In this document: piece by piece, positions 5,875-20,081 of the stretch
Layout: every line of letters starts with the position of its first letter
How positions within the stretch are numbered: the stretch's first letter is position 1
Assembly: GCA_905197385.1 (NCBI GenBank)
Contig: CAJJYO010000005.1
Location: forward strand, 1 to 20,081
DNA: 20,081 bases
Direction of reading: 5' to 3'
Origin: an uncultured Collinsella sp.
Lineage (GTDB): Bacteria > Actinomycetota > Coriobacteriia > Coriobacteriales > Coriobacteriaceae
Notes under the pieces: model-generated
Seen by the model: the letters and a program-made list of their open reading frames with translations, nothing else
Database searches by the model: none
Told to the model about the DNA's origin: nothing
Program-made: the position numbers and the translations under genes

Positions 5875-7473
5875 ATGGATCAAAAGGCTTCCGCAAAGGT
5901 CCTCGTACTCGACTTTGGTGCGCAGTACGGTCAGCTCATTGCCCGTCGCGTCCGCGACCTCAACGTGTATTCCGAGATTGTCCCCTGCGACATCTCGGCC
6001 GACGAGATTCGCGAGATGAACGCCTCTGCGCTCATCCTTTCCGGCGGTCCGGCTTCCGTGTATGCCGAGGACGCTCCGTCTATAGATCCCGCCATCTTTG
6101 ACCTGGGCCTTCCCGTCCTGGGCTTCTGCTACGGCCATCAGATCACGGCCGTGACGCTCGGCGGCAAGGTCGGCCACTCCGAGGTGGGCGAGTACGGCCG
6201 CGCCACCATCACGCGCACGGCCGGCGCCAAGCTCTTTAACTCCACGCCCATGGAGCAGACCGTGTGGATGAGCCACCGCGACGCCGTTTCCGAGGTGCCC
6301 GAGGGCTTTACCGTTACCGCCAGCACTGACGTGTGCCCGGTTGCCGCCATGGAGTGCGTCGAGCGCAAGATTTTCACCACGCAGTTCCACCCCGAGGTCA
6401 AGCACTCCGAGTATGGTCAGCAGCTGCTGAGCAACTTCCTGTTTGAGATCTGCGGCCTGGAGCCCAACTGGAGCATGGACAACCTGGTCGAGACCATGAC
6501 GGCCGAGTTCCGCGAGAAGGTCGGCGACGACCGCGTGATTCTGGCCCTGTCCGGTGGCGTCGACTCCTCCGTCGTGGCTGCGCTGGGTGCTCGCGCCGTG
6601 GGCAAGCAGATGACCTGCGTGTTCATCAACCACGGCCTGCTGCGCAAGGGCGAGCCTGAGCAGGTGGAGGAGGTCTTCACCAAGCAGTTTGACGTCGACT
6701 TTATCCACGTCCACGCCGAGGACCGTTATGCCGAGCTTCTGGCCGGTGTGACCGAGCCCGAGGAGAAGCGCCGCATCATCGGTACGCAGTTCTGGAAAGA
6801 GTTCTTCGCCGTGGCGCAGCAGCTCGAGACCGATGGCAAGCCGGTCAAGTACCTGGCTCAGGGCACCATCTACCCCGACATCATCGAGTCCGGCGCTCGC
6901 AAGACGGGCGGCAAGACGGCCACCATCAAGAGCCATCACAACCTGATCCCGTTCCCCGAGGGCGTGCACTTCGACCTCATCGAGCCGCTCGACCACTTCT
7001 TTAAGGACGAGGTCCGCGCGCTTGGTCTGGCACTGGGCCTGCCGGGTCACATCGTGTTCCGCCAGCCTTTCCCGGGCCCGGGTCTTGCCATCCGCATCAT
7101 CGGTGCGGTCGACAAGGAGAAACTCGAGATCCTCAAGAACGCCGACGCTATCGTGCGCGAGGAGCTGGATGCCTACAACCAGCGCCTGTTTGAGCAGACC
7201 GGCGAGCGCAACTCCGAGCACAGCTGCTGGCAGTATTTCGCGGTTCTGCCCGACATTAAGTCCGTCGGCGTTATGGGCGACGAGCGCTCCTACCAGCGTC
7301 CGATCATCCTGCGTGCCGTCGAGTCCAGCGATGCCATGACCGCCGACTGGGCCAAACTGCCTTACGACGTCCTGGCCCGCATCTCCGGCCGCATCGTTGC
7401 TGAGGTCCCCGGCGCCAACCGCGTGTGCTACGACATCACGTCTAAGCCGCCCGCGACGATCGAGTGGGAGTAA
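5875..7473 (+). CDS. guaA: GMP synthase (glutamine-hydrolysing)
   Basis: Converts XMP to GMP with ATP and glutamine in purine synthesis. At 532 aa it is standard length. The class I glutamine amidotransferase domain carries the nucleophile Cys85 in GFCYGHQ with His172/Glu174 in FHPEV. The ATP pyrophosphatase domain has the P-loop SGGVDSS from residue 226. The C-terminal dimerisation domain ends in the family-typical KPPATIEWE. ATG 5875 follows AGAGGGGG; a GTG at 5839 is less likely. The leader can fold GCGGG (5835-5839) with CCCGC (5853-5857). I looked for a purine riboswitch upstream and saw none. Its last eight bases, GGGAGTAA, recur downstream, consistent with the 3' end being an integration target. 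Confidence 0.97.
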   Translation: MDQKASAKVLVLDFGAQYGQLIARRVRDLNVYSEIVPCDISADEIREMNASALILSGGPASVYAEDAPSIDPAIFDLGLPVLGFCYGHQITAVTLGGKVGHSEVGEYGRATITRTAGAKLFNSTPMEQTVWMSHRDAVSEVPEGFTVTASTDVCPVAAMECVERKIFTTQFHPEVKHSEYGQQLLSNFLFEICGLEPNWSMDNLVETMTAEFREKVGDDRVILALSGGVDSSVVAALGARAVGKQMTCVFINHGLLRKGEPEQVEEVFTKQFDVDFIHVHAEDRYAELLAGVTEPEEKRRIIGTQFWKEFFAVAQQLETDGKPVKYLAQGTIYPDIIESGARKTGGKTATIKSHHNLIPFPEGVHFDLIEPLDHFFKDEVRALGLALGLPGHIVFRQPFPGPGLAIRIIGAVDKEKLEILKNADAIVREELDAYNQRLFEQTGERNSEHSCWQYFAVLPDIKSVGVMGDERSYQRPIILRAVESSDAMTADWAKLPYDVLARISGRIVAEVPGANRVCYDITSKPPATIEWE

Positions 7474-7587
7474 GCCGATAGGGCTTTGACCTGCACTTTT
7501 GAGTGCCACACTGTGCCGTTGAGTTTCGTTTCGTACGAGAGTCATGGCAAAGCCGCCAGCGACGGCGGTGAGTAAATACGATAATCT

Positions 7588-7626
7588 AGCCTCCGTTCCA
7601 GTGCTGGGACGGAGGCTTTTTCTTTG
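7588..7626 (+). terminator. Rho-independent terminator downstream of guaA
   Basis: A 14-bp stem (7588-7601 with 7604-7617, one G-U pair) formed by AGCCTCCGTTCCAG and CTGGGACGGAGGCT, with a 2-base loop region, followed by TTTTTCTTT. It lies 115 bases after the guaA stop. Confidence 0.85.
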
Positions 7627-7631
7627 CTGTT

Positions 7632-7719
7632 TTACTCCCTTTCACCTGCGATTTCGCCATTTATTCCCCGTGCTTCAAGACAGCAAGGCACGGGGCGGTA
7701 TTCGGAGGAATGGGAGTAA
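7632..7719. repeat. Nested inverted repeat in the noncoding region
   Basis: TTACTCCC (7632-7639) pairs with GGGAGTAA (7712-7719); inside it CCCCGTGC (7666-7673) pairs with GCACGGGG (7688-7695). The result is a two-level hairpin or cruciform. Confidence 0.5.
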
Positions 7720-7764
7720 GGATTTATCCCAAGTGAGTAGACGCGCGGTTTTTGTCCCCGAGGG

Positions 7765-7782
7765 CGAAACGGCGCCGTTTCG
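7765..7782. repeat. 18-bp perfect palindrome
   Basis: CGAAACGGCGCCGTTTCG is its own reverse complement. It is flanked by GGG and CCC that could extend a hairpin with a two-base bulge. It could be a protein-binding site or RNA hairpin; no T-run follows. Confidence 0.5.
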
Positions 7783-7953
7783 GGCCCCGCGAAACTCAAA
7801 TCGAACTCAATAGGCTTTTAGGCGGTCTTCGCATAGCGTTTCCCCAGGTGGTTAATGGGGAGTAAAGAATCTCGCCATCTCAATGAAAACGGGAGTAATC
7901 AGGGGAAATGCCGCGGCGTACTGCCGTGTGCCGCCATGTAAGCCACCGCGTCA

Positions 7954-8003
7954 TTTACTCCCCGGACATGCCGGAAATGCCTCCGCGTGCAACGGGGAGT
8001 AAA
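7954..8003. repeat. 10-bp inverted repeat at the island-proximal end of the array
   Basis: TTTACTCCCC (7954-7963) and GGGGAGTAAA (7994-8003) are perfect inverted arms around 30 bases. This is the longest paired form of the guaA-end motif and the one closest to the integration genes. Confidence 0.5.
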
Positions 8004-8090
8004 AACTCAGCATACGCAGGAGCGAGCGGCGCTCACCGCCTAACCTGGCGTTCTGATTTGGTTGCGTTGATTGCAAATAGCTAGGAGTCG

Positions 8091-8504
8091 CTACAGCGAG
8101 GCTTTCCAGTCCTCGTACTCGCTGTCGTCGATCTCGCCGTTCTCGAGCTGCGCGCGCTTCTCTGCCCACAGCTTGATGGTCATCGCGGCTTTGGGTGCGT
8201 GCGGAGCCTTGGGGTTCAGGGGGAGCCCCGAGCCGTCGGCTGCGGGCACGATGCCGAAGGAGTCCTCCAGCCGCACGAGCAGCGACATGAGGTCGCCTGC
8301 GGTCTCGACGCCGTAATCCTTGAGGGCGTTGACGGACACGCCGAGCGCTGCGGCGATGGATTCGAGCAGCTCGGGCTTCACGGCGCGGATGCCGCTCTCG
8401 TAGTGGCGCACGGCCCCTTCGGTCAGGCCGACCGCCTCGGCGAGCTGCGCCTGCGTCATGCCGCGCAACTTGCGGTACCGCCTTATGTTCTCGCCTACGG
8501 ACAT
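8091..8504 (-). CDS. XRE-family repressor of the integration module
   Basis: A 137-aa regulator with an N-terminal Cro/CI HTH: MSVGENIRRYRKLRGMTQ, then AQLAEAVGLTEGAVRHYESG as the helix-turn-helix (about residues 17-38). A C-terminal acidic, charged tail follows, ending near KLWAEKRAQLENGEIDDSEYEDW. ATG 8504 is chosen because AGGAGGAGG lies just upstream; the frame is open further to 8564 but that would run through the operator region. It is divergent from the excisionase-like gene and the two share a 140-bp region with repeated GTACG boxes, as in phage-type lysogeny switches. It probably represses both itself and the xis-int genes. No LexA-like self-cleavage domain is seen. Confidence 0.85.
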   Translation of the reverse strand: MSVGENIRRYRKLRGMTQAQLAEAVGLTEGAVRHYESGIRAVKPELLESIAAALGVSVNALKDYGVETAGDLMSLLVRLEDSFGIVPAADGSGLPLNPKAPHAPKAAMTIKLWAEKRAQLENGEIDDSEYEDWKASL

Positions 8505-8544
8505 GCGCCCTCCTCCTGGAATTACGTACCAACATATCTTATCA

Positions 8545-8627
8545 GCGTACGCAAATGTACGCAATTCTATTGACAGTACAGATATGTACGTTTACTCTGA
8601 ATCTGTAAACCGTACGTATGCGTACGC
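8545..8627. promoter_or_regulatory. Operators with paired GTACG boxes flanking the divergent promoters
   Basis: GTACG occurs at 8547-8551, 8557-8561, 8586-8590, 8612-8616 and 8622-8626. The outer boxes form two pairs exactly 10 bp apart, and GCGTACGC (8545-8552, 8620-8627) is the palindromic end of each pair. The pairs are mirror images around the rightward promoter. A possible leftward promoter (TTGCGT, 17 bp, TAAGAT) overlaps the left pair. The XRE protein at 8091 is the likely binder. Confidence 0.6.
8570..8598 (+). promoter_or_regulatory. Sigma-70-type promoter for the xis-int genes
   Basis: TTGACA (8570-8575), a 17-bp spacer, then TACTCT (8593-8598). The expected start is near 8605, about 40 bases before the excisionase-like ATG. 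The central GTACG box lies within the spacer. Confidence 0.65.
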
Positions 8628-8644
8628 TGTTGATAGGAGGAACC

Positions 8645-8848
8645 ATGGACGAGAGGGTGGCGAAGACGCCGAGGCCGCACATGCTGGACGCCGACGAGGT
8701 CGCGGAGCTGCTGAGGATCAAGAAAGGCAGCGCCTACGAGGTGATCAGGAAGATAAACGCCGAGCAGGAGGCGCGCGGGCGCGTGGTGATCCGCGGGCGC
8801 GTCCGGAGCGACGTCTTCGACGCCTTGTACTTCCCGGAGGTGGACTGA
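8645..8848 (+). CDS. Excisionase-like helix-turn-helix protein (67 aa)
   Basis: A small DNA-binding protein of the excisionase/MerR-like winged-HTH type: MLDADEVAELLRIKKGSAYEVIRKINAEQEARG spans the domain. Proteins like this usually sit just before integrase genes and act as recombination directionality factors or regulators. ATG 8645 has AGGAGG 4 bases upstream; the frame is open to 8618 but those codons lie inside the operator. Its stop is one base before the integrase ATG, so the two are co-transcribed and probably coupled. Confidence 0.8.
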   Translation: MDERVAKTPRPHMLDADEVAELLRIKKGSAYEVIRKINAEQEARGRVVIRGRVRSDVFDALYFPEVD

Positions 8849-8849
8849 C

Positions 8850-9920
8850 ATGCCCGTGTATAAGGACGACAACAACGGCACGTTCTACGTGCAGTGCTAC
8901 TACCGCGACGCCCGCGGCTCGAAGCGCCACAAGACGAAGCGCGGCTTCTCCTCCGAGGTGGAGGCCGCCGTGTGGGAAGGCCAGTTCAAGAGCCTTAACG
9001 GCGGGGCCATGGATATGACGTTCTCCGAGTTCGTCGAGGTGTACGCCTCCGAGGTGAAGCCTCGCATACGCGAGCACACGTGGATCACCAAGGAGTACAT
9101 CATCAACGACAAGCTCGTGCCGTTCTTCGGTGACATGCGCATGTGCGACGTGAGGCCGATCGACGTCATCAGGTGGCAAAACGAGCTCACCGAGCACCGG
9201 GACGCCGAGGGGAAGTCCTGGGCGCCGACCTACCTGCGCACGGTAAATAACCAACTGAACGCCATCTTCAACCATGCCGAGCGCTACTACGGCCTCACCG
9301 ACAACCCGGTGCGCAGGGTCGACAAGATAGGCTCGAAGAAGGGCGGCGAGATGCAGTTCTGGACCAAGGACGAGTACCTGAGGTTCAGCGAGGCCGTCAT
9401 GGACAAGCCGCTCTCGTTCCATGCCTTCGAGCTGCTCTACTGGACGGGCATACGCTGCGGCGAGCTTCTGGCGCTCACGCCGTCCGACTTCATGCTGGAG
9501 AGCTCCCGGCTTCGCATCAACAAGTCGTACCAGAGCCTCCACGGCGTGGACACCGTGACCGACCCCAAGACGCCCAAGTCGGTGCGCACGATTGTCATGC
9601 CCGCCTTCCTGCGCGACGAGATGGCGGACTTCATCGAGCTGCGCGACGACGTTGCGCCCGACGAGCGCCTGTTCGCCGTGACCAAGCACTTCCTGGCCCA
9701 CGAGATGGAGCGCGGGTGCAAGGCGTCTGGAGTGAAGCGCATCCGCGTACACGACATACGCCACAGCCATGTGAGCCTGCTGATCGAGATGGGCTTCTCC
9801 GCGCTGGCCATCGCCGAGCGCATGGGCCACGAGGCGGTGGACATCACCTACCGCTACGCGCACCTGTTCCCCACGAAGCAGGACGAGATGGCCGCCGCGC
9901 TCGACGGAGCGAGGGGGTAA
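8850..9920 (+). CDS. Tyrosine site-specific integrase of the mobile element
   Basis: A 356-aa phage/Tn916-type integrase that would insert and excise the element. The N-terminal 60 residues (YKDDNNGTFYVQCYYRDARGSKRHKTKRGF) look like an arm-binding beta-sheet domain, followed by a SAM-like core-binding domain. The catalytic domain has Arg202 in WTGIRCGELL, His301/Arg304 in HDIRHSH, His327 in MGHEAV and nucleophile Tyr336 in YRYAHL, so it appears intact. ATG 8850 has GGAGG upstream inside the excisionase-like gene. The gene points away from guaA and lies about 1.4 kb from it, with the repeat array between, which fits a guaA 3'-end integrase. It is distinct from the recombinase at 14806. Confidence 0.93.
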   Translation: MPVYKDDNNGTFYVQCYYRDARGSKRHKTKRGFSSEVEAAVWEGQFKSLNGGAMDMTFSEFVEVYASEVKPRIREHTWITKEYIINDKLVPFFGDMRMCDVRPIDVIRWQNELTEHRDAEGKSWAPTYLRTVNNQLNAIFNHAERYYGLTDNPVRRVDKIGSKKGGEMQFWTKDEYLRFSEAVMDKPLSFHAFELLYWTGIRCGELLALTPSDFMLESSRLRINKSYQSLHGVDTVTDPKTPKSVRTIVMPAFLRDEMADFIELRDDVAPDERLFAVTKHFLAHEMERGCKASGVKRIRVHDIRHSHVSLLIEMGFSALAIAERMGHEAVDITYRYAHLFPTKQDEMAAALDGARG

Positions 9921-9925
9921 GAAGG

Positions 9926-10330
9926 ATGCCGTGCGAGAACAGCGCCCGCAAGCGCAGCAAGACGATGGCGTTTCGCTGCACGCCCGAAGAGCACAAGCTC
10001 ATATGCGAGATGGCTGCCTGGAGCGGCATGAGCAGGCAGGACTACATCATCGCCAAGCTCACCGATACCCAAGTTGAGGTGAGGCCCTCTGTGAGCGTTC
10101 AGAAGGCGCTGAAGGGCTCGATGGCGGCGTTGGCCAAGGAGGTCCGGCTGGCGGCATCCTACGGCGAGTTGAGCGATTCTCTGCAGATGAGGCTCTTCCT
10201 GGCGCTCAGCGAGCCGATAGACGCACCAGCGGAAGAGGAACCGCAAACGAAGGCGCCCTCGGCTGTGCCGAAGACGCCTGAAGCTGGCGCCGATGGCGAC
10301 ATGAGTATCTTCGGGATGGGGCGCGGGTAG
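9926..10330 (+). CDS. MobC-like relaxosome accessory protein
   Basis: A 134-aa protein with an N-terminal ribbon-helix-helix-like segment, KTMAFRCTPEEHKLI, followed by MSRQDYIIAKL, the pattern seen in MobC-type plasmid mobilisation proteins that help a relaxase nick the transfer origin. The C-terminal third is an acidic, Pro/Ala-rich tail. ATG 9926 has GAGGGGG 8 bases before it, in the end of the integrase gene. It follows the integrase by 5 bases, so it is part of the same operon. No relaxase is visible in the window; either it lies elsewhere in the element or this is a stand-alone RHH regulator. Confidence 0.65.
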   Translation: MPCENSARKRSKTMAFRCTPEEHKLICEMAAWSGMSRQDYIIAKLTDTQVEVRPSVSVQKALKGSMAALAKEVRLAASYGELSDSLQMRLFLALSEPIDAPAEEEPQTKAPSAVPKTPEAGADGDMSIFGMGRG

Positions 10331-10413
10331 CGTAATATCCGAAGCTATCCTTGAAGAGTGGACGCGAAATTGGTTCTTGATCCATGTGCGCAAAAGCAGA
10401 AGATGGGACCCAT

Positions 10414-10434
10414 ACGCTGATGAAGGGTGATGAG
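10414..10434 (-). repeat. Repeat B, copy 1 (LITLHQR end of left cassette)
   Basis: ACGCTGATGAAGGGTGATGAG, read on the + strand in two parts as ACGCTGATGAAG and GGTGATGAG; it encodes the LITLHQR end on the - strand. Confidence 0.75.
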
Positions 10435-10882
10435 GGTGTCAATGCGTCCCAAACAAGCTGAAATCACCCGTTGCTCTTCGAGATTTACTGGCATTGTGAC
10501 TTCGATATCCGCGAATCTGTTGTATTTCAGAGTCTGGGTATCTTTCGAGTTTCCCTGCGAATCGCACAGATATTTATATAACATCTCAGGCCGCTTCAGA
10601 AGATAGCCAAAGCATGTTGAGTCTAGCTCGATGACAGGTCTAGCAACTACGTAAGCTGGGCTAACAATACCATCGTAATCACTTGACCCAACAGCGCCCT
10701 GCCACATTCGCATGCTGTTGTAGACAACGTCACCCTTGTGAACCACTTTGTAATTCGCGAGGCTCGCACCCGGATTTGTATCCCTGTTCGATTCCGATGC
10801 GGGATATATTCCTTTAGCCACACTGACAGATAGGATCTCCATTGACGATGAGCGCTCATTGCTTTCGAAGAATAATCCCCCC

Positions 10883-10899
10883 AACTTACGCTGTTCCCA
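10883..10899 (-). repeat. Repeat A, copy 1 (WEQRKL end of left cassette)
   Basis: AACTTACGCTGTTCCCA, the reverse complement of the A sites at 14257 and 16297. It stands 20 bases from the possible hsdR -10 box. Confidence 0.8.
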
Positions 10900-10918
10900 G
10901 GTAGATGTACCTATGTCT

Positions 10919-10924
10919 TATAAT
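10919..10924 (+). promoter_or_regulatory. Possible -10 box for hsdR
   Basis: A consensus TATAAT lies 54 bases before the hsdR ATG in AT-rich sequence. No convincing -35 is found at the right distance, so this is tentative. Confidence 0.35.
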
Positions 10925-10977
10925 GATTGCCAATAGTTAAGTGCATAACTTTTTGCAGTTCGTAGATAGGTTTCGCC

Positions 10978-13900
10978 ATGGTTTTCGATAAAGAGGCCGC
11001 GTTCGAGGAAGCGGTCATCACCGTGCTGAAGCAGCACGGCTGGGACGACGCGGGGGGCGTGCTTCGCTATCCCACCGAGCAGGACCTCATCAACAACTGG
11101 GCGAAGATTCTATTCCAGAACAACGCCGACATAGACCGCCTGAACGGCTGCCCTCTCACCCAGGGCGAGATGGCGCAGGTCATCGAACAAATCGAAACGC
11201 TCAAGACCCCGCTCGCGCTCAACGGGTTCATCAACGGAAAGACTGTCGCCATCACGCGCGACAACCCAGACGATGCACTTCATCTGGGCAAGGAGGTGAG
11301 CCTGAAAATCTATGATCGTCAGGAGATTGCAGCCGGCCAGAGCCGCTACCAGATCGCTCAGCAGCCTGTCTATCCTGCGAAGAGCAAGATCTTGAACGAC
11401 CGTCGCGGAGACTTGTGCCTGCTCATCAACGGCATGCCGGTCATCCATATCGAACTCAAGCGCAGCGGCATCCCCGTCAGCCAGGCCACCGGTCAGATCG
11501 AGAAGTATGCCCACGAGGGCGTGTTCACCGGGCTCTTCCGCCTGACGCAGATCTTCGTGGGGATGACCCCCGACGAGGCGCGCTATTTCGCCAACCCCGG
11601 CACGGGCGCGTTCAACCCGAACTTCTTCTTCCACTGGGAGGACTTCAACAACGAGCCCGTCTGCGCGGGCGACAAACCCGGAACAGACGAATGGAAGCGC
11701 TTCACCTCCACGCTGCTCTCCATCCCTATGGCACACCAGCTCATCGGCTTCTATACCGTGGCGGATAGCTCGGACGGCTGTTTGAAGGTCATGCGGAGCT
11801 ACCAGTACTACGCGGCTTCTGCCATATCCGACAAGGTGCGCAGATGCAAGTGGGACGAGAGGCCCAAGAGCAGCGCCCCGGGGCGTCCTGGCGGCTATAT
11901 ATGGCATACCACCGGCTCCGGCAAGACCATGACGAGCTTCAAGTCGGCCCAGCTCATAGCCGACTCACACGACGCCGACAAGGTGGTCTTCCTCATGGAC
12001 CGCATCGAGCTGGGCACGCAGTCGCTCTCCGAGTACCGCGCATTCGCCGATGACGCCGATGACGTGCAGGGGACCGAGAACACGCAGGTGCTGAAGTCGA
12101 AGCTCGCGAGCGACGACCCCAAGAACCGCCTCATCGTGACCTCTATCCAGAAGATGAGCAACGTGAAGGCCGGCGAGGGCAGGATCACCCAGGCGGAACT
12201 CGACCGCCTGGGTGCCAAGCGGATTGTGTTCGTTATAGACGAGTGCCACCGCTCAACCTTCGGCGACATGCTCCAGGACATACGCCGGGCTTTCCCAAAC
12301 GCGCTGTTCTTCGGTTTCACGGGCACGCCGATCCTCGACGAGAACCAGAAGAAAGGCTCCACCACCGCCATGGTGTTCGGCGAGTGCCTGCACCGCTACA
12401 GCATCGCCGACGGCATCCGTGACGGCAATGTGCTGGGCTTCGACCCGTACATGGTGACGACCTTCGACGACCACGACGTACGCGAGGCCGTGGCCCTCGA
12501 GCAGGCTAAGGCCTCGAGCGTCGGCGAGGCCATCTCCGACGAGCGCAAGAGCAAGGTCTTCTATCACTACATGGACCAGGCGAAGGTCCCCATGGGTCCC
12601 ATGGTTGACGGCGCCGGCAACCACATCAAGGGCATCGAGGACTTCCTGACCCGCGCCCAGTACTGGCCCGATACGCCGCACCACGGCAAGGTCGTCGAGG
12701 ACGTGCTGCGGCGCTTCCCTGTGCTTTCCCACGGTGGCAAGTTCCACGCAATTCTGGCGACGAGCTCCATCCCCGAGGCCATTGATTACTACCGCGCCTT
12801 CAAGAGGGAGGCGCCGCAGATGAAGGTGACGGCGCTCTTCGACCCGAGCATCGACAACGATGCCGGCTCCACTGTGAAGGAGGACGCCCTGGTCGAGCTT
12901 ATCGAGGACTACAACAAAGCGTATGGCCAGGAGTTCACCATTCCCACCTGGCCCGCCATGAAGAAGGACATCTCAGCGCGCCTTTCTCATAAGAAGCCCT
13001 ACGTCAACGTCGACGCCAACCGCGAGAGCCGCATCGACCTGCTCATCGTGGTGGACCAGATGCTCACGGGCTTCGACTCCAAGTGGCTCAACACGCTCTA
13101 TCTCGACAAGGTCATCGACTACGAGAGCATCATCCAGGCCTTCAGCCGCACCAACCGCCTGTTCGGCCCTGACAAACCCTTCGGCACCATCCGCTATTAC
13201 CGCCGTCCCCATACTATGAAGGGCTACATCGAGGCCGCGGTGAAGCTGTACTCGGGCGACCGCCCGCTCGACATGTTCGTGCAGAAGCTCCCGGACAATA
13301 TCGCGCTGATGGACGCGCGCCTTCAGGAGATACTCATGGTCTTCGAGGCAGCTGGCGTAGGAGACCTCTCCAAGCTCCCCGCATCGCAGGAAGCCAGGCG
13401 TAAGTTCGCCAAGGAGTTCGTCGAGCTCAACGAGTTCCTCGAGGCCGCGAAGGTGCAGGGCTTCACATGGGAGCAGGACACCTATGAATTCGAGGAGGAG
13501 CCGGAAGAAGGCGAGCTGAGCGGCAAATCCTTCTTCGTGCAGCCGGTCATCGACGAGCGGACCTATCTCATCCTCGTGCAGCGCTACAAGGAGCTGTTCG
13601 CAGGAGGGGGCGGCCCTGGCGACGCGCCTGAAGCGCCCTACGAGCTTGATGGTCATATAACTGAGATCGACACGGGGCTCATAGACAGCGACTACATGAA
13701 CGCGAACTTCGAGAAGTGGCTGAAATGCCTTGAGCAGGACGACGAGGGGCTCGCCGCCGCGCGCGAGGAGCTCCACCGATCGTTCGCGTCCCTGAGCCAG
13801 GATGACCAGCGCTTCGCCGAGCTGTTCCTTCACGACGTCGAACGAGGGGACGCCGCCCTGGAAGACGGCATGACGCTGAGGGATTACATCACGACCTATG

Positions 13901-14178
13901 CACGCAGGGCGAAAAACGCTCAGGTCGAGCGAGTCGTTGAGGCGCTCGGCATAGATGGCGATCTTCTTGCCACTATGGCTGCGCTCGACCTTGCGGAATC
14001 GAACATTAACGAGTTCGGGCGCTTCGACGATTTGAAGGACTCGGTGGACAAAGCACGCGCCAAGGCCTTCTTTGAGCAGAAGGAGGGCAAGACGCTTCCC
14101 CTGTTCAAGGTGAACACCCGTGCGGCGGCGCTGTTGAAGAAGTTCATCCTGGAAGGCGGCTTCGACATCGACGAATGA
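10978..14178 (+). CDS. hsdR: Type I restriction endonuclease subunit R
   Basis: The motor and nuclease subunit of a type I restriction system, 1066 aa, close to the EcoR124 type. The PD-(D/E)xK nuclease is Asp145 in RRGDLCL with Glu159-Leu-Lys161 in IELK. The helicase part has Walker A TTGSGKT (311-317), DECH (421-424), FTGT (447-450), MLTGFDS near 695 and QAFSRTNR near 720. The C-terminal third is the helical region that contacts the methyltransferase. All motifs look intact. ATG 10978 has only a modest AGATAGG-type site. Its stop overlaps the next start (ATGA at 14175-14178), coupling it to a half hsdS. It is unusual in being apart from, and opposite to, hsdM/hsdS, and in lying between inverted A repeats. 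Confidence 0.96.
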   Translation: MVFDKEAAFEEAVITVLKQHGWDDAGGVLRYPTEQDLINNWAKILFQNNADIDRLNGCPLTQGEMAQVIEQIETLKTPLALNGFINGKTVAITRDNPDDALHLGKEVSLKIYDRQEIAAGQSRYQIAQQPVYPAKSKILNDRRGDLCLLINGMPVIHIELKRSGIPVSQATGQIEKYAHEGVFTGLFRLTQIFVGMTPDEARYFANPGTGAFNPNFFFHWEDFNNEPVCAGDKPGTDEWKRFTSTLLSIPMAHQLIGFYTVADSSDGCLKVMRSYQYYAASAISDKVRRCKWDERPKSSAPGRPGGYIWHTTGSGKTMTSFKSAQLIADSHDADKVVFLMDRIELGTQSLSEYRAFADDADDVQGTENTQVLKSKLASDDPKNRLIVTSIQKMSNVKAGEGRITQAELDRLGAKRIVFVIDECHRSTFGDMLQDIRRAFPNALFFGFTGTPILDENQKKGSTTAMVFGECLHRYSIADGIRDGNVLGFDPYMVTTFDDHDVREAVALEQAKASSVGEAISDERKSKVFYHYMDQAKVPMGPMVDGAGNHIKGIEDFLTRAQYWPDTPHHGKVVEDVLRRFPVLSHGGKFHAILATSSIPEAIDYYRAFKREAPQMKVTALFDPSIDNDAGSTVKEDALVELIEDYNKAYGQEFTIPTWPAMKKDISARLSHKKPYVNVDANRESRIDLLIVVDQMLTGFDSKWLNTLYLDKVIDYESIIQAFSRTNRLFGPDKPFGTIRYYRRPHTMKGYIEAAVKLYSGDRPLDMFVQKLPDNIALMDARLQEILMVFEAAGVGDLSKLPASQEARRKFAKEFVELNEFLEAAKVQGFTWEQDTYEFEEEPEEGELSGKSFFVQPVIDERTYLILVQRYKELFAGGGGPGDAPEAPYELDGHITEIDTGLIDSDYMNANFEKWLKCLEQDDEGLAAAREELHRSFASLSQDDQRFAELFLHDVERGDAALEDGMTLRDYITTYARRAKNAQVERVVEALGIDGDLLATMAALDLAESNINEFGRFDDLKDSVDKARAKAFFEQKEGKTLPLFKVNTRAAALLKKFILEGGFDIDE

Positions 14179-14825
14179 GCGGCGATTTTGAACAGGCGAA
14201 ATCGAGAGTTTGTCAATCCGAGGGGGCGTATGTGAGCGTGCGTCCCCTCGCTTCATCTTGGGAACAGCGTAAGTTGGGCAACTGTGGGACAACCTATGGC
14301 GGTCTGAGCGGTAAAACCAAGGAAGATTTCGGTCATGGCAACGCTAGGTTCGTTCCGTATACCAATGTCTTCGACAATCCCCTGACGGACACAAAGCGGC
14401 TCGAGACAGTCGAAATAGATTCAAGCCAAAACAAAGTTGCGTACGGTGACACGTTCTTCACTGTGTCTTCTGAAACGCCAGATGAAGTTGGCATGTCCTC
14501 AGTTTGGCTCTCTGACCAGGATGATGTTTACCTCAACAGCTTCTGTTTTGGATACAGACAAGATTCAACGTTTGACCCGCATTACCTAGCCTACATGCTC
14601 AGGTCAAGTTCGATTCGTTCCGATCTCACTCTGCTGGCTCAGGGAATCTCTAGATTCAACATCTCCAAGAACAAGGTGATGGAGTTGAGTGTTCCCGTTC
14701 CGTCTGCGGCAGAGCAGAAGCAAATTGGTCAATACTTCGCCCGCCTCGACAGCCTCATCACCCTTCATCAGCGTGAGCCGCCTCACACGATGAAGGAGGG
14801 TAAAAATGTCGATCAGCATCAATGA
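14175..14825 (+). CDS. Half-length HsdS with a single target-recognition domain
   Basis: A 216-aa specificity-subunit half: a 28-residue leader, WEQRKLGNCGTTYGG at repeat A, one TRD, then AAEQKQIGQYFARLDSLITLHQRE at repeat B and a tail encoded by the recombinase leader. A normal HsdS has two TRDs (about 400 aa). The ATG overlaps the hsdR stop; an in-frame GTG at 14232 after GAGGGGG is an alternative start. Its stop lies 20 bases inside the recombinase gene. As it has a start and a promoter-bearing operon, it is probably expressed. Half HsdS proteins of other systems can dimerise to give a palindromic-site enzyme, so it may be functional with the HsdM encoded at the right end. Confidence 0.85.
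   Translation: MSGDFEQAKSRVCQSEGAYVSVRPLASSWEQRKLGNCGTTYGGLSGKTKEDFGHGNARFVPYTNVFDNPLTDTKRLETVEIDSSQNKVAYGDTFFTVSSETPDEVGMSSVWLSDQDDVYLNSFCFGYRQDSTFDPHYLAYMLRSSSIRSDLTLLAQGISRFNISKNKVMELSVPVPSAAEQKQIGQYFARLDSLITLHQREPPHTMKEGKNVDQHQ
14257..14278 (+). repeat. Repeat A, copy 2 (in half hsdS)
   Basis: CTTGGGAACAGCGTAAGTT followed by GGG, encoding WEQRKLG. This + copy faces copy 1 across hsdR and copy 3 across the recombinase gene. Confidence 0.85.
14753..14779 (+). repeat. Repeat B, copy 2; left arm of a 27-bp inverted repeat
   Basis: It encodes the LITLHQRE end of the half HsdS. All 27 bases are repeated inverted at 15751-15777, including the CGTGAGCC variant not found in the other B copies. 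Confidence 0.9.
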
Positions 14826-15732
14826 AGAATCGCTTTTCTGCGATTACTACTCGGAATGGATTAGCGTTTACAAAGAAGGGGCCATCCGTGAGGTCACCAT
14901 GGGAAAGTACCGGCTCACGCAGTCTTGGCTTGCCAAGCTGATTCCAGACCTCAAGATAAAAGATCTCGACCGCACTTCGTACCAGCAGCTCATCAATGGT
15001 TACGCAGAGCACCACGAGCGCCAGACAACCATGGACTTTCACCATCAGCTTAAAGGGGCGATCCTTGACGCGGTTGACGAAGGACTCATCCCCCGCGATC
15101 CTACGCGCAAGGCTATCATCAAAGGAAAACAGCCGCGTGCGAAAAAGATCAAGTATCTCAACCAGTTTGAGCTTCATGCCATGCTCGGCGACCTTGACTT
15201 ATCAGGCGGGCCGAGTTGGGATTGGCTTATTCTCATAGTCGCTAAAACGGGCCTGCGCTTTTCCGAGGCCCTTGGGCTTACTCCCGAAGACTTCGACTTT
15301 GCTCATCAAACGCTCTCGGTAAACAAGACCTGGGATTACAAGACCGGCGGCGGATTCGTTCCCACGAAAAACGCCTCATCAGTGCGGAAGGTTCAACTCG
15401 ACTGGCAACTCATCATGCAACTTTCTGGGCTGCTCAAAAACCTTCCGCCGACCGAGCCCATATTTGCGAAGGGAAAGGTCTATAACTCGACAGCTAACTG
15501 CGTTTTGGCGCGCCACTGCAAGAATGTTGGCGTGCCTGTCATATCCGTCCACGGACTGCGGCATACGCATGCGTCACTTTTGCTGTTCGCCGGTGTCTCT
15601 ATCGCCAGCGTATCCCGAAGGCTCGGCCATGCAAGTATGACCACCACTCAGGAAACCTATCTGCACGTCATTCAAGAGCTCGAGAACAAGGACATTGACA
15701 TCGTCATGAGGGCTCTTTCGACTCTAATTTAA
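14806..15732 (+). CDS. Tyrosine recombinase, probable hsdS invertase
   Basis: A 308-aa integrase-fold recombinase. An N-terminal SAM-like core-binding domain (about 1-110) precedes a catalytic domain with Arg151 in TGLRFSEALG, His249/Arg252 in HGLRHTH, His275 in LGH and nucleophile Tyr285 in QETYLHV; it appears intact. It is shorter than the element integrase and lacks that protein's N-terminal arm-binding part. ATG 14806 follows AAGGAGGG and lies inside the 3' end of the half hsdS, so hsdR, half hsdS and recombinase form one overlapping operon. Recombinases in this position in other type I loci invert hsdS segments. The gene lies between the two arms of a perfect 27-bp inverted repeat, so it may flip itself. 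Confidence 0.92.
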   Translation: MSISINEESLFCDYYSEWISVYKEGAIREVTMGKYRLTQSWLAKLIPDLKIKDLDRTSYQQLINGYAEHHERQTTMDFHHQLKGAILDAVDEGLIPRDPTRKAIIKGKQPRAKKIKYLNQFELHAMLGDLDLSGGPSWDWLILIVAKTGLRFSEALGLTPEDFDFAHQTLSVNKTWDYKTGGGFVPTKNASSVRKVQLDWQLIMQLSGLLKNLPPTEPIFAKGKVYNSTANCVLARHCKNVGVPVISVHGLRHTHASLLLFAGVSIASVSRRLGHASMTTTQETYLHVIQELENKDIDIVMRALSTLI

Positions 15733-15750
15733 CCTGTATCAGCAAACCGT

Positions 15751-15777
15751 GGCTCACGCTGATGAAGGGTGATGAGG
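15751..15777 (-). repeat. Repeat B, copy 3; right arm of the 27-bp inverted repeat
   Basis: Exact reverse complement of 14753-14779, placed just after the recombinase stop. Confidence 0.9.
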
Positions 15778-16251
15778 TCGTCCAATTGAGAGAAATAAGA
15801 CGCGATAACTTCTTGCTCCTTGATTCCGGGAAAAGTTACCGCACCTTTTAGTGCATTCTCAGCTGACACCTTCATATCGTTTTTGGCGCCCTTGCTGACT
15901 AATGGAGCCATGTAATTATTCATACGCGCATTCTGCTCAAAATATACCTGCACGAAGTCGGGATGAGTCTTCTCTGTCGGGTGGTAAACGGCATAGAGAG
16001 TCGAAACAATACCGTCATTTCCCCTGTTCGTTTTAATAATCCCGTATGGATTGATCCTCAATGGCGATTTGGTATATACGACATCGCCCTTATGGACAAC
16101 GCCATAATTTGCAACGGATGTGCCAGCGTACGATCTGCCCTGAAATTCAATCTGGTTAACGATCCCATAGTCGCCCGAGACTGAAAGAACATCGTCCTTG
16201 CCAAAATGACAAGACTCATTCTTCTCTCTTGAGGTTTCAAGATATTCATTT

Positions 16252-16270
16252 AACTTACGCTGTTCCCAAG
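16252..16270 (-). repeat. Repeat A, copy 3
   Basis: AACTTACGCTGTTCCCAAG; it forms a perfect 19-bp inverted repeat with copy 4, only 26 bases away. Confidence 0.9.
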
Positions 16271-16289
16271 ATGGAGTCGTTCAATCTGG

Positions 16290-17315
16290 ATGACCGCTTG
16301 GGAACAGCGTAAGTTGGGAGACTGTTTCGAGTTCTTGAAGAACAACACTCTTTCACGCGCTGGTTTGAATGGCGAGAATGGCACTGCTCGCAATGTTCAT
16401 TACGGAGATATTCTTATTAAGTTCGGTGATTGCCTCGATGGTGAACGAAGCGATTTACCGTTCATTACCGACGATACAGTGCTTCCCAAATTCACTGGGT
16501 CGATACTTCGCGAAGGTGATGTCATTTTCGCCGACACAGCAGAAGACGAAGCGGCTGGCAAGTGTGTTGAACTGCGGAAACTACCCAAAGAGCCAACTAT
16601 CTCGGGGTTGCATACGATACCGGCGCGACCTCGGTTCCCCTTTGGGACGGGCTACCTGGGGCACTACCTTAACTCCGATGCATACCACAGACAGCTTCTT
16701 CCCTTAATGCAGGGGATCAAGGTGATTTCCGTTTCAAAGGCCTCACTGCAAGATACACAAGTAAGATTTCCTGGCTTGTCGGAGCAAACTGCCATAGGCG
16801 CGGCGTTGAGTGAGATCGACGCCCTCATTACCCTTCATCAGCGTAAGTGCCAATACCGTAGCTTATACGGGTATCTTTCTTGGGAACAGCGTAAGTTCTC
16901 GGAAATCGTCGATGTCTGCAGCGGGCGTGATTACAAGCATCTTAACGAAGGACCCATTCCGGTTTATGGAACCGGTGGATACATGACCAGCGTTTGCGAA
17001 GCGCTGTCGCATAATCGGGACGCCGTCGGTATCGGCAGAAAAGGGACCATTGATAAACCCTATCTTTTAAAAGCCCCGTTTTGGACGGTTGACACGCTGT
17101 TTTATGCAATCCCGAAGCCGGATATCAACCTTGAGTTTGCCCTCTGTTCCTTTTTGAATGTAGATTGGAAATCTAAAGATGAATCAACGGGGTTGCCGAG
17201 TCTATCGAAAGAAGCAATTAACGAAACAGTTCTGCGCGTCCCAAATGCAGTTGAGCAAAATCACCTTGGCAGCTTTTTCACCGACATTGATTCCCTCATC
17301 ACCCTTCATCAGTGA
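16290..17315 (+). CDS. Two-TRD hsdS storage cassette, probably silent
   Basis: A 341-aa frame with two complete TRDs: WEQRKLGDCFEFL to LITLHQRK (repeats A4, B4), then a 12-residue linker and WEQRKFSEIVDV to LITLHQ (A5, B5), stopping at once. Compared with the hsdS at 17433, the linker is about 20 residues shorter and the conserved C-terminal helix is missing, and the leader is only ATG-Thr-Ala. No Shine-Dalgarno sequence or promoter is visible in the 26 bases between the A3 and A4 repeats. This fits a cassette that gains proper ends only after inversion with the - strand hsdS. It could still yield a short HsdS if transcribed by read-through. Confidence 0.75.
   Translation: MTAWEQRKLGDCFEFLKNNTLSRAGLNGENGTARNVHYGDILIKFGDCLDGERSDLPFITDDTVLPKFTGSILREGDVIFADTAEDEAAGKCVELRKLPKEPTISGLHTIPARPRFPFGTGYLGHYLNSDAYHRQLLPLMQGIKVISVSKASLQDTQVRFPGLSEQTAIGAALSEIDALITLHQRKCQYRSLYGYLSWEQRKFSEIVDVCSGRDYKHLNEGPIPVYGTGGYMTSVCEALSHNRDAVGIGRKGTIDKPYLLKAPFWTVDTLFYAIPKPDINLEFALCSFLNVDWKSKDESTGLPSLSKEAINETVLRVPNAVEQNHLGSFFTDIDSLITLHQ
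16297..16315 (+). repeat. Repeat A, copy 4
   Basis: CTTGGGAACAGCGTAAGTT, the N-side boundary of the first TRD of the two-TRD cassette. Confidence 0.9.
16824..16847 (+). repeat. Repeat B, copy 4
   Basis: CTCATTACCCTTCATCAGCG followed by TAAG; one base (T for C) differs from most B copies. Confidence 0.8.
16879..16897 (+). repeat. Repeat A, copy 5
   Basis: CTTGGGAACAGCGTAAGTT, the N-side boundary of the second TRD of the cassette; identity with other copies ends right after it (TCTCGG rather than GGG). Confidence 0.85.
17295..17312 (+). repeat. Repeat B, copy 5, cut off after CATCAG
   Basis: CTCATCACCCTTCATCAG is followed by TGA instead of CGTAAG, so the reading frame stops exactly at the break in repeat identity. 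Confidence 0.8.
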
Positions 17316-17360
17316 CAGTCCAATGGCAAGGCGCACAACATTATTATCCTCAGTAGAACG

Positions 17361-17398
17361 AAAAACCGCCAACTCGACATAGCGAAATCGGCGGTTCT
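17361..17398 (-). terminator. Rho-independent terminator of the hsdM-hsdS operon
   Basis: AACCGCC (17364-17370) pairs with GGCGGTT (17390-17396). Read on the - strand, the stem is followed by a run of five T (17365-17361). It lies 35 bases beyond the hsdS stop. On the + strand there is no T-run. Confidence 0.65.
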
Positions 17399-17432
17399 AG
17401 GGCTCGAAACTATAAGCGACTCACGAAAGTTA

Positions 17433-18653
17433 TTAAACGAACATCCTATCCAACAGCGATTTCTTGATATTCCTTAACAGCTCAAGCTTACGCTGATGAA
17501 GGGTGATGAGGTTATCGAGATAGAGGAAAACCAATCCGACAGCCTCCTGTTCGCGCATGGAGGGCATCAAGAGAGCAACATCGGCTAGGGTATCCTGCGA
17601 CACATTTATATGTTGAGCACCCTGAGCTCTGTGAGTAATTTGCTCGCGAATAAAAGGGGAACTAAGAAGATATTTAATGAAAATAGGGTTATACTCACCG
17701 ACTTTTTTGCCTCTTATCACGAATCCTCCGAAAGCGGATGAAACATGCTGGTCAAGATACACGTTCGACGTTCCGGCATCCTCCTGATTTTCCGAGCTGC
17801 GCTGAAACAGTACATCACCGTACTCAACACAATAGCGGCTAGCTTCTTCGCAATTCAGGCGAGCTTTGCCCCTTACTGTCTCGTGCGTAATGAATTTATC
17901 ATCAAGAACATCCATGACACTGATAAGCGGAATCCCGCTTCCAAATGACTCGCTGGAGCCATTAAAACCATTTTGAAAAAGAAGCAGCTCGCCCAACTTA
18001 CGCTGTTCCCAAGGGTCAGTGAAACCCTCGAAGCGGATTTCGGGCTCAGTCTCGCCGGGTTTCGGAAACATCTTGTCGAGCATCGATTTCTTCACCGTGC
18101 ACAGCTTGTCGTACTTACGCTGATGAAGGGTGATGAAGGAATCGAGGCTATTGTAAAAGCCGCCTATCGCTCTCTGCTCGTTAACTGTGGTCCATGGGAT
18201 GGGAATTGTTTTCATTCCGTCGATATCAATACTTCGGCCATCGCGAATTCCGTAAACATGAGGTTTTAGGTCTGTATCGATGAATCGCTTTGACCTGAAA
18301 TAGAGATAGTAGAAATCGGAGTCTATGCCATCGCCATGGAAGGTATGGTATGCGGGACTGATCAAACCACAATATGTTGCCTTCTCCAGCCCTCCTTCGA
18401 ATGAGCGAAGATGAACGATGAAATCATCGGGATTGACAGCCTTGTAGTTTGAGAGACTGTTCTTATCAAATTGAAGGTTTCGGTTTGACTCATCACGGTA
18501 GACGGTTCCGCCGCCTTGAATGATGGTAAGAGGTGGTAGGTCTGCCCTGTTCTTTTCGGAATACTCTTCAAAGATCTCACCCAACTTACGCTGTTCCCAA
18601 GGGTCAGTGAAACCTTCGAAGCGGATTTCTGGGATATTTTGTTTTTCTGCCAT
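17433..18653 (-). CDS. hsdS: Type I restriction-modification specificity subunit S (expressed copy)
   Basis: The DNA-recognition subunit, which with HsdM forms the methyltransferase and with HsdR the nuclease. At 406 aa it is full length. The leader is MAEKQNIPEIRFEGFTDP, then WEQRKLGE begins TRD1 (from residue 19), which ends at FITLHQRK near 173. A 35-residue spacer repeats EIRFEGFTDP, then WEQRKLGE (about 214) begins TRD2, ending at LITLHQRK and the conserved helix KLELLRNIKKSLLDRMF. ATG 18653 comes one base after the hsdM stop, so the genes are coupled. It carries repeats B6, A6, B7 and A7 in the opposite orientation to the two-TRD cassette next to it, so inversion can exchange one or both TRDs. 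Confidence 0.95.
   Translation of the reverse strand: MAEKQNIPEIRFEGFTDPWEQRKLGEIFEEYSEKNRADLPPLTIIQGGGTVYRDESNRNLQFDKNSLSNYKAVNPDDFIVHLRSFEGGLEKATYCGLISPAYHTFHGDGIDSDFYYLYFRSKRFIDTDLKPHVYGIRDGRSIDIDGMKTIPIPWTTVNEQRAIGGFYNSLDSFITLHQRKYDKLCTVKKSMLDKMFPKPGETEPEIRFEGFTDPWEQRKLGELLLFQNGFNGSSESFGSGIPLISVMDVLDDKFITHETVRGKARLNCEEASRYCVEYGDVLFQRSSENQEDAGTSNVYLDQHVSSAFGGFVIRGKKVGEYNPIFIKYLLSSPFIREQITHRAQGAQHINVSQDTLADVALLMPSMREQEAVGLVFLYLDNLITLHQRKLELLRNIKKSLLDRMFV
17487..17510 (-). repeat. Repeat B, copy 6 (end of hsdS TRD2)
   Basis: CTTACGCTGATGAAGGGTGA followed by TGAG. It lies 174 bases from the opposed copy 5. Confidence 0.85.
17992..18041 (-). repeat. Repeat A, copy 6, within a 50-bp direct repeat
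   Basis: The A site is 17992-18013. The whole 50 bases match 18580-18629 with one mismatch (C/T), covering the EIRFEGFTDPWEQRKLG codons before TRD2. Confidence 0.9.
18114..18136 (-). repeat. Repeat B, copy 7 (end of hsdS TRD1)
   Basis: CTTACGCTGATGAAGGGTGA followed by TGA, encoding the FITLHQRK end of TRD1. Confidence 0.85.
18580..18629 (-). repeat. Repeat A, copy 7, within a 50-bp direct repeat
   Basis: The A site is 18580-18601, at the start of hsdS TRD1. It pairs in direct orientation with 17992-18041; recombination between them would delete TRD1 and the spacer in frame (588 bases). Confidence 0.9.
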
Positions 18654-18654
18654 G

Positions 18655-20081
18655 CTACTCACCGCCCAACAGCTTGCGCAGCTCGGCGATGCCCGCCATA
18701 TCGTACTCGTTGCCCCTAAGCTGCCCCAGCATGTCTGCCAGCTGGCTTTCTGCATCATCTATCTGGTTGCACACGTCCGAGTAGGTTGTCGCGTATTTGG
18801 CGTTGAGCGCAGAAACCTTCGCGATGAAGTCGCTCAAAATGGCTTCGGGAAGGGCCAGGAGTTCAACCTGCAGCGGCTCTATCCACTTGGCGGTCAGCAG
18901 ATCATCGCACTGGGCGTCGGTCAGGCCCTCGATGACCTCCTTGGTCGTCTCATCAAGTGCCATTCTCGCTTCCTTGTTCGCCTTCTTGAGGCTTTTCTCC
19001 TCATCGAGCAGCGCCTGCGCACGAACCAGACCTTGCTCGAAATCGTTTTCAGGGTGCTTTCCGATAGCCTTCACAGCCTTCTTGAGCTCAGCCGCCACAA
19101 ACGAACCTTCGTCGTTGACAGCAGCAGAGGATCCCTTGTCCTCCTCGTCGAAGCTCTCGAGAATCTCGTCTACTTCCTGCGATATCTCGCCTAGGCGGGA
19201 ATCACGGGAAGCAATCTTCTTGACGTCTTCGGCAAGCAGGTGCTCTTGCACAAGCGCAAACGGCAGGATGCGGCCAGCCCAGCCGTCCTGCACCTCGACG
19301 TCTTTGCCGTTCTTCTTCTTGACCACCATATTCGGGTCCACCTTGCGCACAGCGCCTTTCCCCTCGGTCTGGATGACCTCCAGGTCGCCGGAAATTCCCA
19401 CCCAGGCATCGTCGAGCGCCTGGTAGGCGTCGTAGCCGTCGATCAGGGCTGTGCCCGCCAGCGCGTCTTTCAAAAGCGCTGCGATGGCCTCTTCCTCCGC
19501 CACGGTATCGACTTCATCGACAGCGTCCACCAAACGGCTTCGCAGCGTGGCCGGTAAATGGCTTGTCGCATCACGATAGCCGCCCAAGAAGGCGCGGACG
19601 TCGGCGTTTTCCTTCACCACTTGCGCGACGTCGTCGGTCGCGGGCGCAAGGCACGAACCATCGGCGTCGCGGTAGAGTTGCCCTTTGAGGCTCGGCCATA
19701 CCTTCCAGTAGCGTTCGAGCGCGTCGACCTCGTCCTTCGGCACGCCGCCGAACATGGTGGCGTACACGTCCCAGCTTTCGGCTGCCGCGCTCGAGTCCAC
19801 GTAGCGCGGGATGTTGAGGTTGTAGTCGTTGGCACGGATCTCGTCGATGGGAACCAGGCGGCTGAACTTGTTGACGGTCGCGTTCGTTGTCACGGCGTCG
19901 ACGACACGCTTGATGTCACTTGCCCGCAGCTTGTTGTTCTTGCCTTCTTTCACGAAGTGCTTGGAGGCGTCCACCACCAATACGTCGCTCGTCTCGCGCT
20001 GCTTGCGCAGCACCATGATGATGGTGGGGATGCCCGTGCCAAAAAAGATATTGGCAGGAAGCCCGATGATTGCCTGAATAT
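18655..20081 (-). CDS. hsdM: Type I DNA methyltransferase subunit M (5' end beyond window)
   Basis: The C-terminal 475 residues of HsdM, the adenine methyltransferase subunit. The part nearest the right edge reads GLPANIFFGTGIPTIIMVLRK and TSDVLVVDASKHF, the conserved block that follows the NPPF/NPPY catalytic motif in this family; the catalytic motif and AdoMet-binding site lie outside the window. The frame stays open to the last base, so an ATG at 20016 is internal. After the catalytic region comes a long, charged, helical tail (roughly the last 250 residues, rich in Glu/Lys/Ala/Leu), probably coiled coil, ending in LRKLLGGE. It is one base upstream of hsdS in the same operon and opposite in direction to hsdR. 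Confidence 0.93.
   Translation of the reverse strand, partial: IQAIIGLPANIFFGTGIPTIIMVLRKQRETSDVLVVDASKHFVKEGKNNKLRASDIKRVVDAVTTNATVNKFSRLVPIDEIRANDYNLNIPRYVDSSAAAESWDVYATMFGGVPKDEVDALERYWKVWPSLKGQLYRDADGSCLAPATDDVAQVVKENADVRAFLGGYRDATSHLPATLRSRLVDAVDEVDTVAEEEAIAALLKDALAGTALIDGYDAYQALDDAWVGISGDLEVIQTEGKGAVRKVDPNMVVKKKNGKDVEVQDGWAGRILPFALVQEHLLAEDVKKIASRDSRLGEISQEVDEILESFDEEDKGSSAAVNDEGSFVAAELKKAVKAIGKHPENDFEQGLVRAQALLDEEKSLKKANKEARMALDETTKEVIEGLTDAQCDDLLTAKWIEPLQVELLALPEAILSDFIAKVSALNAKYATTYSDVCNQIDDAESQLADMLGQLRGNEYDMAGIAELRKLLGGE

Follow-up and report, generated by a model that had tools for sequence, protein, structure and literature searches.

The hsd locus in a 20,081-nucleotide stretch of DNA from an uncultured Collinsella sp. 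(contig CAJJYO010000005.1 of assembly GCA_905197385.1; this whole stretch is called the window below) is very probably a phase-variable Type I restriction-modification locus, in which seven target-recognition domains (TRDs) are shuffled by a resident tyrosine recombinase. This is the best explanation of four features that appear in the sequences themselves, namely the anatomy of the TRD cassettes, a constraint acting at the DNA level on two short repeats (A and B), the different slots and orientations in which relatives carry these TRDs, and alternative junctions in public proteins. In the mechanism that we propose, the recombinase would join A with A and B with B, and inversion between opposite copies would swap TRD bodies among the seven slots. 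A full HsdS would come only from the two TRDs adjoining hsdM (now c7 then c6, joined by the linker s67), and the other five TRDs would form a silent or half-frame store. With identical A and B ends on every TRD, any TRD should fit either HsdS position.

Seven open TRD cassettes (c1 to c7), each carrying one A and one B site, surround hsdR and the recombinase gene, beside hsdM, in the order c1(-), hsdR(+), c2(+), recombinase(+), c3(-), c4(+), c5(+), c6(-), c7(-), hsdM(-) (Table 1). Site search and pairing thus confirmed the description in an earlier note on this DNA of seven TRDs bounded by repeats A and B, in both orientations, around a tyrosine recombinase gene. The cassette bodies, which that note took to be intact, measure 434-545 bp from A to B and are free of internal stops in all seven cases. 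They are also distinct, as long alignments between TRDs give about 22-34% identity, with a top value of about 34%. The only complete two-TRD HsdS is c7+c6, directly after hsdM and, judging from that placement, probably in the expressed position. Cassettes c4 and c5 share a frame that has two TRDs but not the usual head of an HsdS, and the c5 frame ends directly behind the residues LHQ, where the DNA reads CAGTGA, a stop. The remaining cassettes (c1, c2 and c3) are single-TRD frames, and the list of open reading frames starts c1 and c3 at a start codon inside the cassette. The Methylase_S (Pfam) score for c1 falls just under the cut-off and the short 110-aa c3 frame is unmatched; the full c3 body is 34% identical to c1 over 172 positions.

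Site A is 17 bp long and exact in all seven copies, and site B is 20 bp long, exact in four copies and one mismatch away in the other three; all lie within 10415-18599. When up to three mismatches were allowed, a scan of the window returned only these seven A and seven B sites. Shuffled sequence gave means of 0.04 (A) and 0.00 (B), and seven sites were reached in 0/100 cases. The two sites have a common 9-bp end, CAGCGTAAG, a feature absent from the earlier note, which occurs 10 times in the window against an expected 0.07. Site A can be written as CTTGGGAA-CAGCGTAAG and site B as ATCACCCTTCAT-CAGCGTAAG, the other halves being different.

Codon use at these sites was examined in 82 recombinase-bearing loci, with record titles from several phyla, in which nothing but the encoded protein motif was used to gather sites (WEQRK; xxLHQRK). 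Counts of GAA, CAG, CGT and AAG at 163 A sites were 163, 163, 155 and 160, where local codon use would predict 79, 106, 31 and 99; at 125 B sites, CTT was found 125 times (expected 29) and CGT 122 times (expected 23). In the control, comprising 80 columns (at least 95% conserved) of the 82 recombinases, the share of the commonest codon never exceeded 0.80, and 0/80 columns reached 0.95. Thus, near-frozen codons at A and B, set against unfrozen recombinase columns, indicate that both sites are constrained as DNA. Taken over sites with flanking sequence (160 for A, 122 for B), the conserved DNA core is CTTGGGAACAGCGTAAG for A and ATCACCCTTCATCAGCGTAAG for B, and conservation of the next base drops to 0.64 and 0.47, respectively. 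Further out at A some bases remain conserved, as does the protein.

The sites also accompany the enzyme. Among 58 genomes of the same genus and order, seven carry the recombinase at 67-99% identity (one copy is cut by a contig end), and an exact A site was present in 7/7 of these but in 1/51 of the others (Fisher p 2.7e-8, uncorrected for kinship). Exact B sites were found in six of the 58, comprising five of the seven recombinase genomes and G037. Together, the near-frozen codons and the co-occurrence with the recombinase support site-specific recombination. Genome G037 (L118 and L119; C124 and C19) is the only exception among the 51 genomes: no close recombinase was detected in it, yet its A and B sites are exact. 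Its assembly is fragmented, and the recombinase gene may be missing from it. We also considered recombination of A with B, the products of which are at most rare, since the residues that follow the two sites in 240 proteins differ: A is almost always followed by TRD-like residues (LG 315, FS 29, LS 6, LN 6, FG 4, FA 3, others 4) and B by mostly different, linker-like ones.

The cassette order of the window was found in none of six related loci (L111, L112, L113, L114, L033 and L034), and where TRDs are shared the breakpoints fall at A and B. An identical order in all related strains, which the earlier note named as refuting, is thus not what the relatives show. In genome G014 (L111), c2 lies inverted in slot 1, beyond hsdR (99.8% identity), and slot 2 holds a match to c4 (96.7%). 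In L033, from an Eggerthellaceae metagenome-assembled genome, c1 is in slot 2 (98.1%) and c7 is in the second-TRD slot (97.1%). More distant relatives of c2 and c7 occupy slots 5 and 4 of Collinsella aerofaciens BSD2780120875b (G001, L112; 88.6 and 89.2%), a relative of c4 is in slot 2 of C. stercoris (L113; 92.7%), and Collinsella An307 (L051), with a different gene order, carries c3 (97.5%) and c2 (95.4%). Among the loci compared, no close DNA match was found for c5 (72% at most) or for c6 (none over 70% of its length); close matches to these two came from protein lists only. The spacer s34 has the orientation of the window in L113 and is reversed in L033 (29/30 bases alike) and, as judged by eye, in L112, L114 and L034. 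Furthermore, Bifidobacterium relatives differ by inversion of blocks that hold the recombinase and hsdM (L044 vs L045 and L041) or hsdM alone (L044 vs L043 and L039), and the alignments have their edges at A or B sites or close to them. Loss can be seen too: G014 lacks the region from slot 3 to hsdM (slots 4-7), so that its slot-3 A site adjoins hsdM and three TRDs remain. This is the shape that deletion between direct A sites would leave.

Rearranged loci of this kind might also arise slowly, by homologous recombination and gene transfer between strains, with the order fixed within each strain and the recombinase not the cause. The moved TRDs (96.7-99.8% identical at the DNA level across related loci) are about as similar as the backbone shared with G014 (left flank 95.7%, hsdR 99.1%, recombinase 96.0%), so the moves need not be recent; TRDs such as c1 in L033 are shared beyond the genus; and TRD movement at flanking repeats has been described in Helicobacter pylori with the machinery left open (PMC3077401). 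Furthermore, the relative orientation of hsdR and the recombinase is unchanged in 6/6 close loci. However, the breakpoints fall on sites of only about 17-22 bp, which is short for homologous recombination. These sites are near-frozen as DNA with conservation that drops at their ends, they track the recombinase gene, and junctions requiring an inverted hsdR or recombinase exist among the proteins listed below. We therefore consider slow exchange between strains to be unlikely as the explanation.

Public proteins also hold alternative junctions. With residues 1-42 of the slot-2 frame as the query, 331 proteins passed, and the best 120 were examined. The TRD could be cut out in 114 of them, of which 76 have an identical 28-residue head, and these TRDs form 38 clusters at 80% identity. 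At a threshold of at least 85% identity, the TRD behind this head was c1 in 26 proteins, c2 in 13, c3 in four, c4 in four, c6 in two, c5 in one and c7 in one, and another TRD in 69; all seven window TRDs thus occur there, with best matches of 97.8-100%. The downstream ends are of six kinds, namely slot-2 (73), the s45 linker (14), slot-1 (7), slot-3 (6), slot-6 (4) and s56-left (1), besides bare LHQ (5) and unclassified ends (10). Slot-1 and slot-3 ends on a slot-2 head are expected if hsdR or the recombinase were inverted. The idea that the linker frame never changes was dropped, as slot-2 heads carry other ends.

The expressed hsdS (c7+c6) was used as a second query, for which the best 120 of 7970 proteins were examined; with this query, pairs without c6 or c7 could hardly turn up. 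A head like that of the expressed hsdS was present in 56 proteins, of which 47 have a slot-6-like tail, three a slot-1 (P0085) or slot-3 (P0062 and P0079) tail, and six another. At the same 85% threshold, the window TRD pairs were c7+c6, c7+c2, c1+c6, c2+c6, c3+c6, c4+c6, c6+c2, c6+c4 and c6+c6. Two proteins hold exact TRD duplicates (P0002, c6+c6; P0012, c7+c7), which predict symmetric targets; such duplicates go beyond inversion alone and would need exchange between sister copies, or excision with reintegration. The switching that the earlier note inferred therefore gains comparative support, from the other cassette orders in relatives and from the alternative junctions in public proteins.

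The mixed junctions in public proteins could be artefacts, if assemblers had made chimeras at the repeats. Many of the listed proteins are on short contigs, and contig ends of relatives cluster at A and B, with 18/73 lying within 60 bp of a site (29 intact loci have 2.2% of their positions that close) and 11/73 within 20 bp (null 0.8%). However, moved TRDs also occur in the isolate assemblies of C. aerofaciens (G001) and C. stercoris, and in G014, which is probably an isolate; inverted blocks occur in Bifidobacterium isolates; and contig ends at repeats shorter than the usual assembly word size could themselves reflect mixed junctions. Chimeric assembly is therefore very unlikely to account for the junctions as a whole. 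We examined the contig ends at A and B as a sign of mixed reads, for which they are suggestive only: a pair of G019 contigs beginning at B have just their first 25 bp in common, and an assembler that works with short words would also break at such a place.

It is also conceivable that the locus was once shuffled and is now frozen, the recombinase being silent or the slots locked, with c7+c6 alone in use. Some B copies have diverged, including that of c5 with its stop, and relatives show loss, as in G014 or in L114 and L034, which have no recognisable TRD in slot 2. Against this, the window encodes a full-length recombinase whose translation contains R, HxxR, H and Y motifs that we take to be catalytic, and four relatives have it at 94-99% identity. 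The A sites are all exact and the cassettes all open. A frozen reservoir thus seems improbable. In the reading favoured here, this recombinase is inferred to carry out the shuffling and to be active in the strain at present, and the targets of methylation and restriction would shift with it.

The consequences of free switching were explored in a block model of the locus, in which inversions are allowed between opposite A sites or between opposite B sites. From the present state, 24 single inversions are possible, and three of these bring c2, c4 or c5 to the second position without loss of s67. Within four inversions, the model reaches every one of the 42 ordered (21 unordered) TRD pairs with s67. 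The earlier note held that two slots and seven TRDs could give many specificities; counted as pairs of different TRDs, these number 42 if order matters and 21 if it does not, rather than 49 independent specificities. The first and second TRD each read one half of the target (PMC3077401). If the half-site that a TRD reads does not depend on its position, a swap in order would leave the bipartite target unchanged except for the strand, and 21 pair targets is the fairer count.

Several observations weigh against shuffling by the resident recombinase. In a random walk through the model, a two-TRD HsdS was present at hsdM with linker s67 in 16% of states and with the short s45 linker in another 16%, leaving 68% with neither; many states would therefore have half an HsdS or no HsdS at all, if complete ones are not favoured by selection or regulation. 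Free inversion in the model also gives a 50:50 orientation of hsdR, unlike the constant orientation in close loci, where it holds relative to the recombinase in L111-L114, L033 and L034, and relative to hsdM in the five loci that reach hsdM. Junctions implying a flipped hsdR or recombinase come only from public proteins, many of them on short contigs, and assembly chimeras at repeats of 17-25 bp are possible there. An exact B site was not found in two of the seven recombinase genomes (G014 and G042), and G014, with only three TRDs, has no two-TRD HsdS beside hsdM, so loss occurs too. Finally, in the comparable pneumococcal locus, the role of the recombinase has been disputed for some repeats (PMC4948785, PMC6620402).

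The structure of the sites leads to a more tentative proposal, to which we give slightly less than even credence. One recombinase may operate two separate exchange registers, with A joined only to A and B only to B (the half CAGCGTAAG being shared and the other half differing), so that any TRD with both ends would be an interchangeable cassette for either position, drawn from a pool of TRDs common to gut actinobacteria and to organisms outside that group, somewhat in the manner of an integron for DNA specificity. Such a two-site rule would let parts of specificity cross genera as cassettes. If switching takes place in culture, one commensal strain could produce up to 21 distinct TRD pairs, compared with six pneumococcal specificities (PMC7394358). 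A gut population could then vary in its phage defence, in gene uptake and perhaps in gene expression.

Table 1. Features of the hsd locus, with positions in the window and the sites or domain matches of each.
Feature	Position	Strand	Details
TRD cassette c1, slot 1, single-TRD, left of hsdR	10415..10899	-	B 10415-10434, A 10883-10899
hsdR, 1066 aa, between slots 1 and 2	10978..14178	+	SWI2/SNF2 ATPase, EcoR124_C and HSDR_N domains
TRD cassette c2, slot 2	14259..14773	+	A 14259-14275, B 14754-14773; in frame 14175-14825
Tyrosine recombinase, 308 aa, between slots 2 and 3	14806..15732	+	Phage_integrase
TRD cassette c3, slot 3	15757..16268	-	B 15757-15776, A 16252-16268
Spacer s34, 30 bp, flanked by the inverted A sites of c3 and c4	16269..16298	.	
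TRD cassette c4, slot 4	16299..16843	+	A 16299-16315, B 16824-16843
TRD cassette c5, slot 5	16881..17314	+	A 16881-16897, B 17295-17314; Methylase_S match
hsdS, c7+c6, 406 aa, start adjoins hsdM stop	17433..18653	-	PADLOC Specificity_I
TRD cassette c6, slot 6, second TRD of HsdS adjoining hsdM	17491..18011	-	B 17491-17510, A 17995-18011
s67, central conserved linker of HsdS adjoining hsdM	18012..18117	-	
TRD cassette c7, slot 7, first TRD of HsdS adjoining hsdM	18118..18599	-	B 18118-18137, A 18583-18599
hsdM, C-terminal part, continues past window end	18655..20081	-	N6_Mtase, PADLOC MTase_I; TIGR00497 under cut-off

With hsdR, hsdM and hsdS in one locus, the gene content is that of a Type I restriction-modification system (Table 1). 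HsdR scores above the cut-off of TIGR00348, and hsdM, which is cut by the end of the window, is an 853-aa frame in L033, L111 and L112. To the left of the locus (8091-10330) lie an HTH_3 helix-turn-helix regulator (8091-8564), a small protein without a Pfam match (8618-8848), a second tyrosine recombinase (8850-9920) and a NikA-like mobilisation protein, with a guaA-like gene, named by eye, further out. This left flank is common to L111 and L112 and is not shared by L113, L033 or L034, so the hsd locus could be part of a genomic island or lie next to one. Island ends were looked for in a single comparison (window 7001-9000 vs L112 from 15201), which gave no exact match longer than 13 bp. A tRNA search of the window found none, and plasmid records gave no near-identity match to 14200-18660.

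Relatives of the recombinase were also found in records filed as phages. L116 (OR846613.1), filed as an Enterococcus phage, has a recombinase 64.6% identical to that of the window and, by eye, two HsdS-like frames and one HsdM-like frame; it has a similar B site and CAGCGTAAG, but its A-like site differs (TGGGAACTGTGTAAGTT). Listeria phages, including B025 (L115), have integrases 48-50% identical to the window recombinase, and no A or B sites were found in the 5.9-kb B025 piece. The similarity of the Listeria phage integrases suggests that phage integrases and HsdS shuffling enzymes are linked.

The size of the TRD store was compared across 31 loci that extend 9 kb or more to either side of the recombinase. 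Four TRDs were counted in 18 of these, three in five, five in two, two in two and one in four; site detection was tuned to the sites of the window, so divergent loci may be undercounted. The window (seven TRDs), G001 (seven) and C. stercoris (six) are too near a locus edge to belong to the 31. The suggestion in the earlier note that seven TRDs is large for a phase-variable hsdS locus therefore holds, in that seven is at the top of the range among the loci compared, although the kind of locus is already known. Switching of hsdS in Collinsella or Coriobacteriia was not found in the literature searched, a search with most subscription journals outside its coverage.

Published systems share much of this arrangement. 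Several TRDs with inverted repeats, a locus-encoded recombinase and alternative arrangements, as seen here in relatives and public proteins, would place the locus among the inverting Type I systems, which have been the subject of a REBASE survey (PMC7394358). Signs of inversion have been described in 13 species (PMC5903667), and a group of invertons across phyla has been tied to HsdS, a tyrosine recombinase and MobC (PMC11892184). In Bifidobacterium longum (PMC4618763) and Enterococcus faecalis (PMC7394358), as in the window, a single locus combines hsdM, hsdR and a recombinase gene with several hsdS genes; however, B. longum NCIMB 8809 is listed with three hsdS genes (PMC4618763), whereas the window has seven TRDs, one of them beyond hsdR. 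The pneumococcal SpnIII/cod (ivr) locus with PsrA is likewise of Type I, with one expressed and silent hsdS genes, a neighbouring tyrosine recombinase and inversion at repeats that changes TRDs. PsrA is reported to be active on all three repeat classes (PMC7096588), or to have an effect for IR1 only (PMC4948785). However, the three SpnIII repeat pairs (15, 298 and 85 bp) are each tied to particular gene pairs, whereas in the window two short sites flank all seven TRDs and, in principle, all could exchange with all in both positions.

Two further systems come close in other respects. In the pneumococcal tvr/SpnIV locus, TvrR, a tyrosine recombinase, shuffles TRDs at short repeats, and shortened loci remain after excision, but it does so by excision and reintegration between direct repeats, typically with four TRDs and four arrangements (PMC6265443), whereas the window has both orientations and seven TRDs. 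In domain movement (DOMO), identical x and y repeats around both positions let TRDs move between first and second place (PMC3077401). The same is found here, as A and B flank c7 and c6 alike, both orders of c6 with c4 and of c6 with c2 exist in the best 120 of 7970 proteins, and c7 is first in the window and second in L033. DOMO was inferred from a comparison of alleles, with the machinery left open (PMC3077401), whereas in the window x- and y-like sites lie beside a recombinase and also around stored single-TRD cassettes. In summary, phase-variable Type I loci are a known kind, of which the window locus is an unusually large example, with TRDs that occur in either HsdS position.

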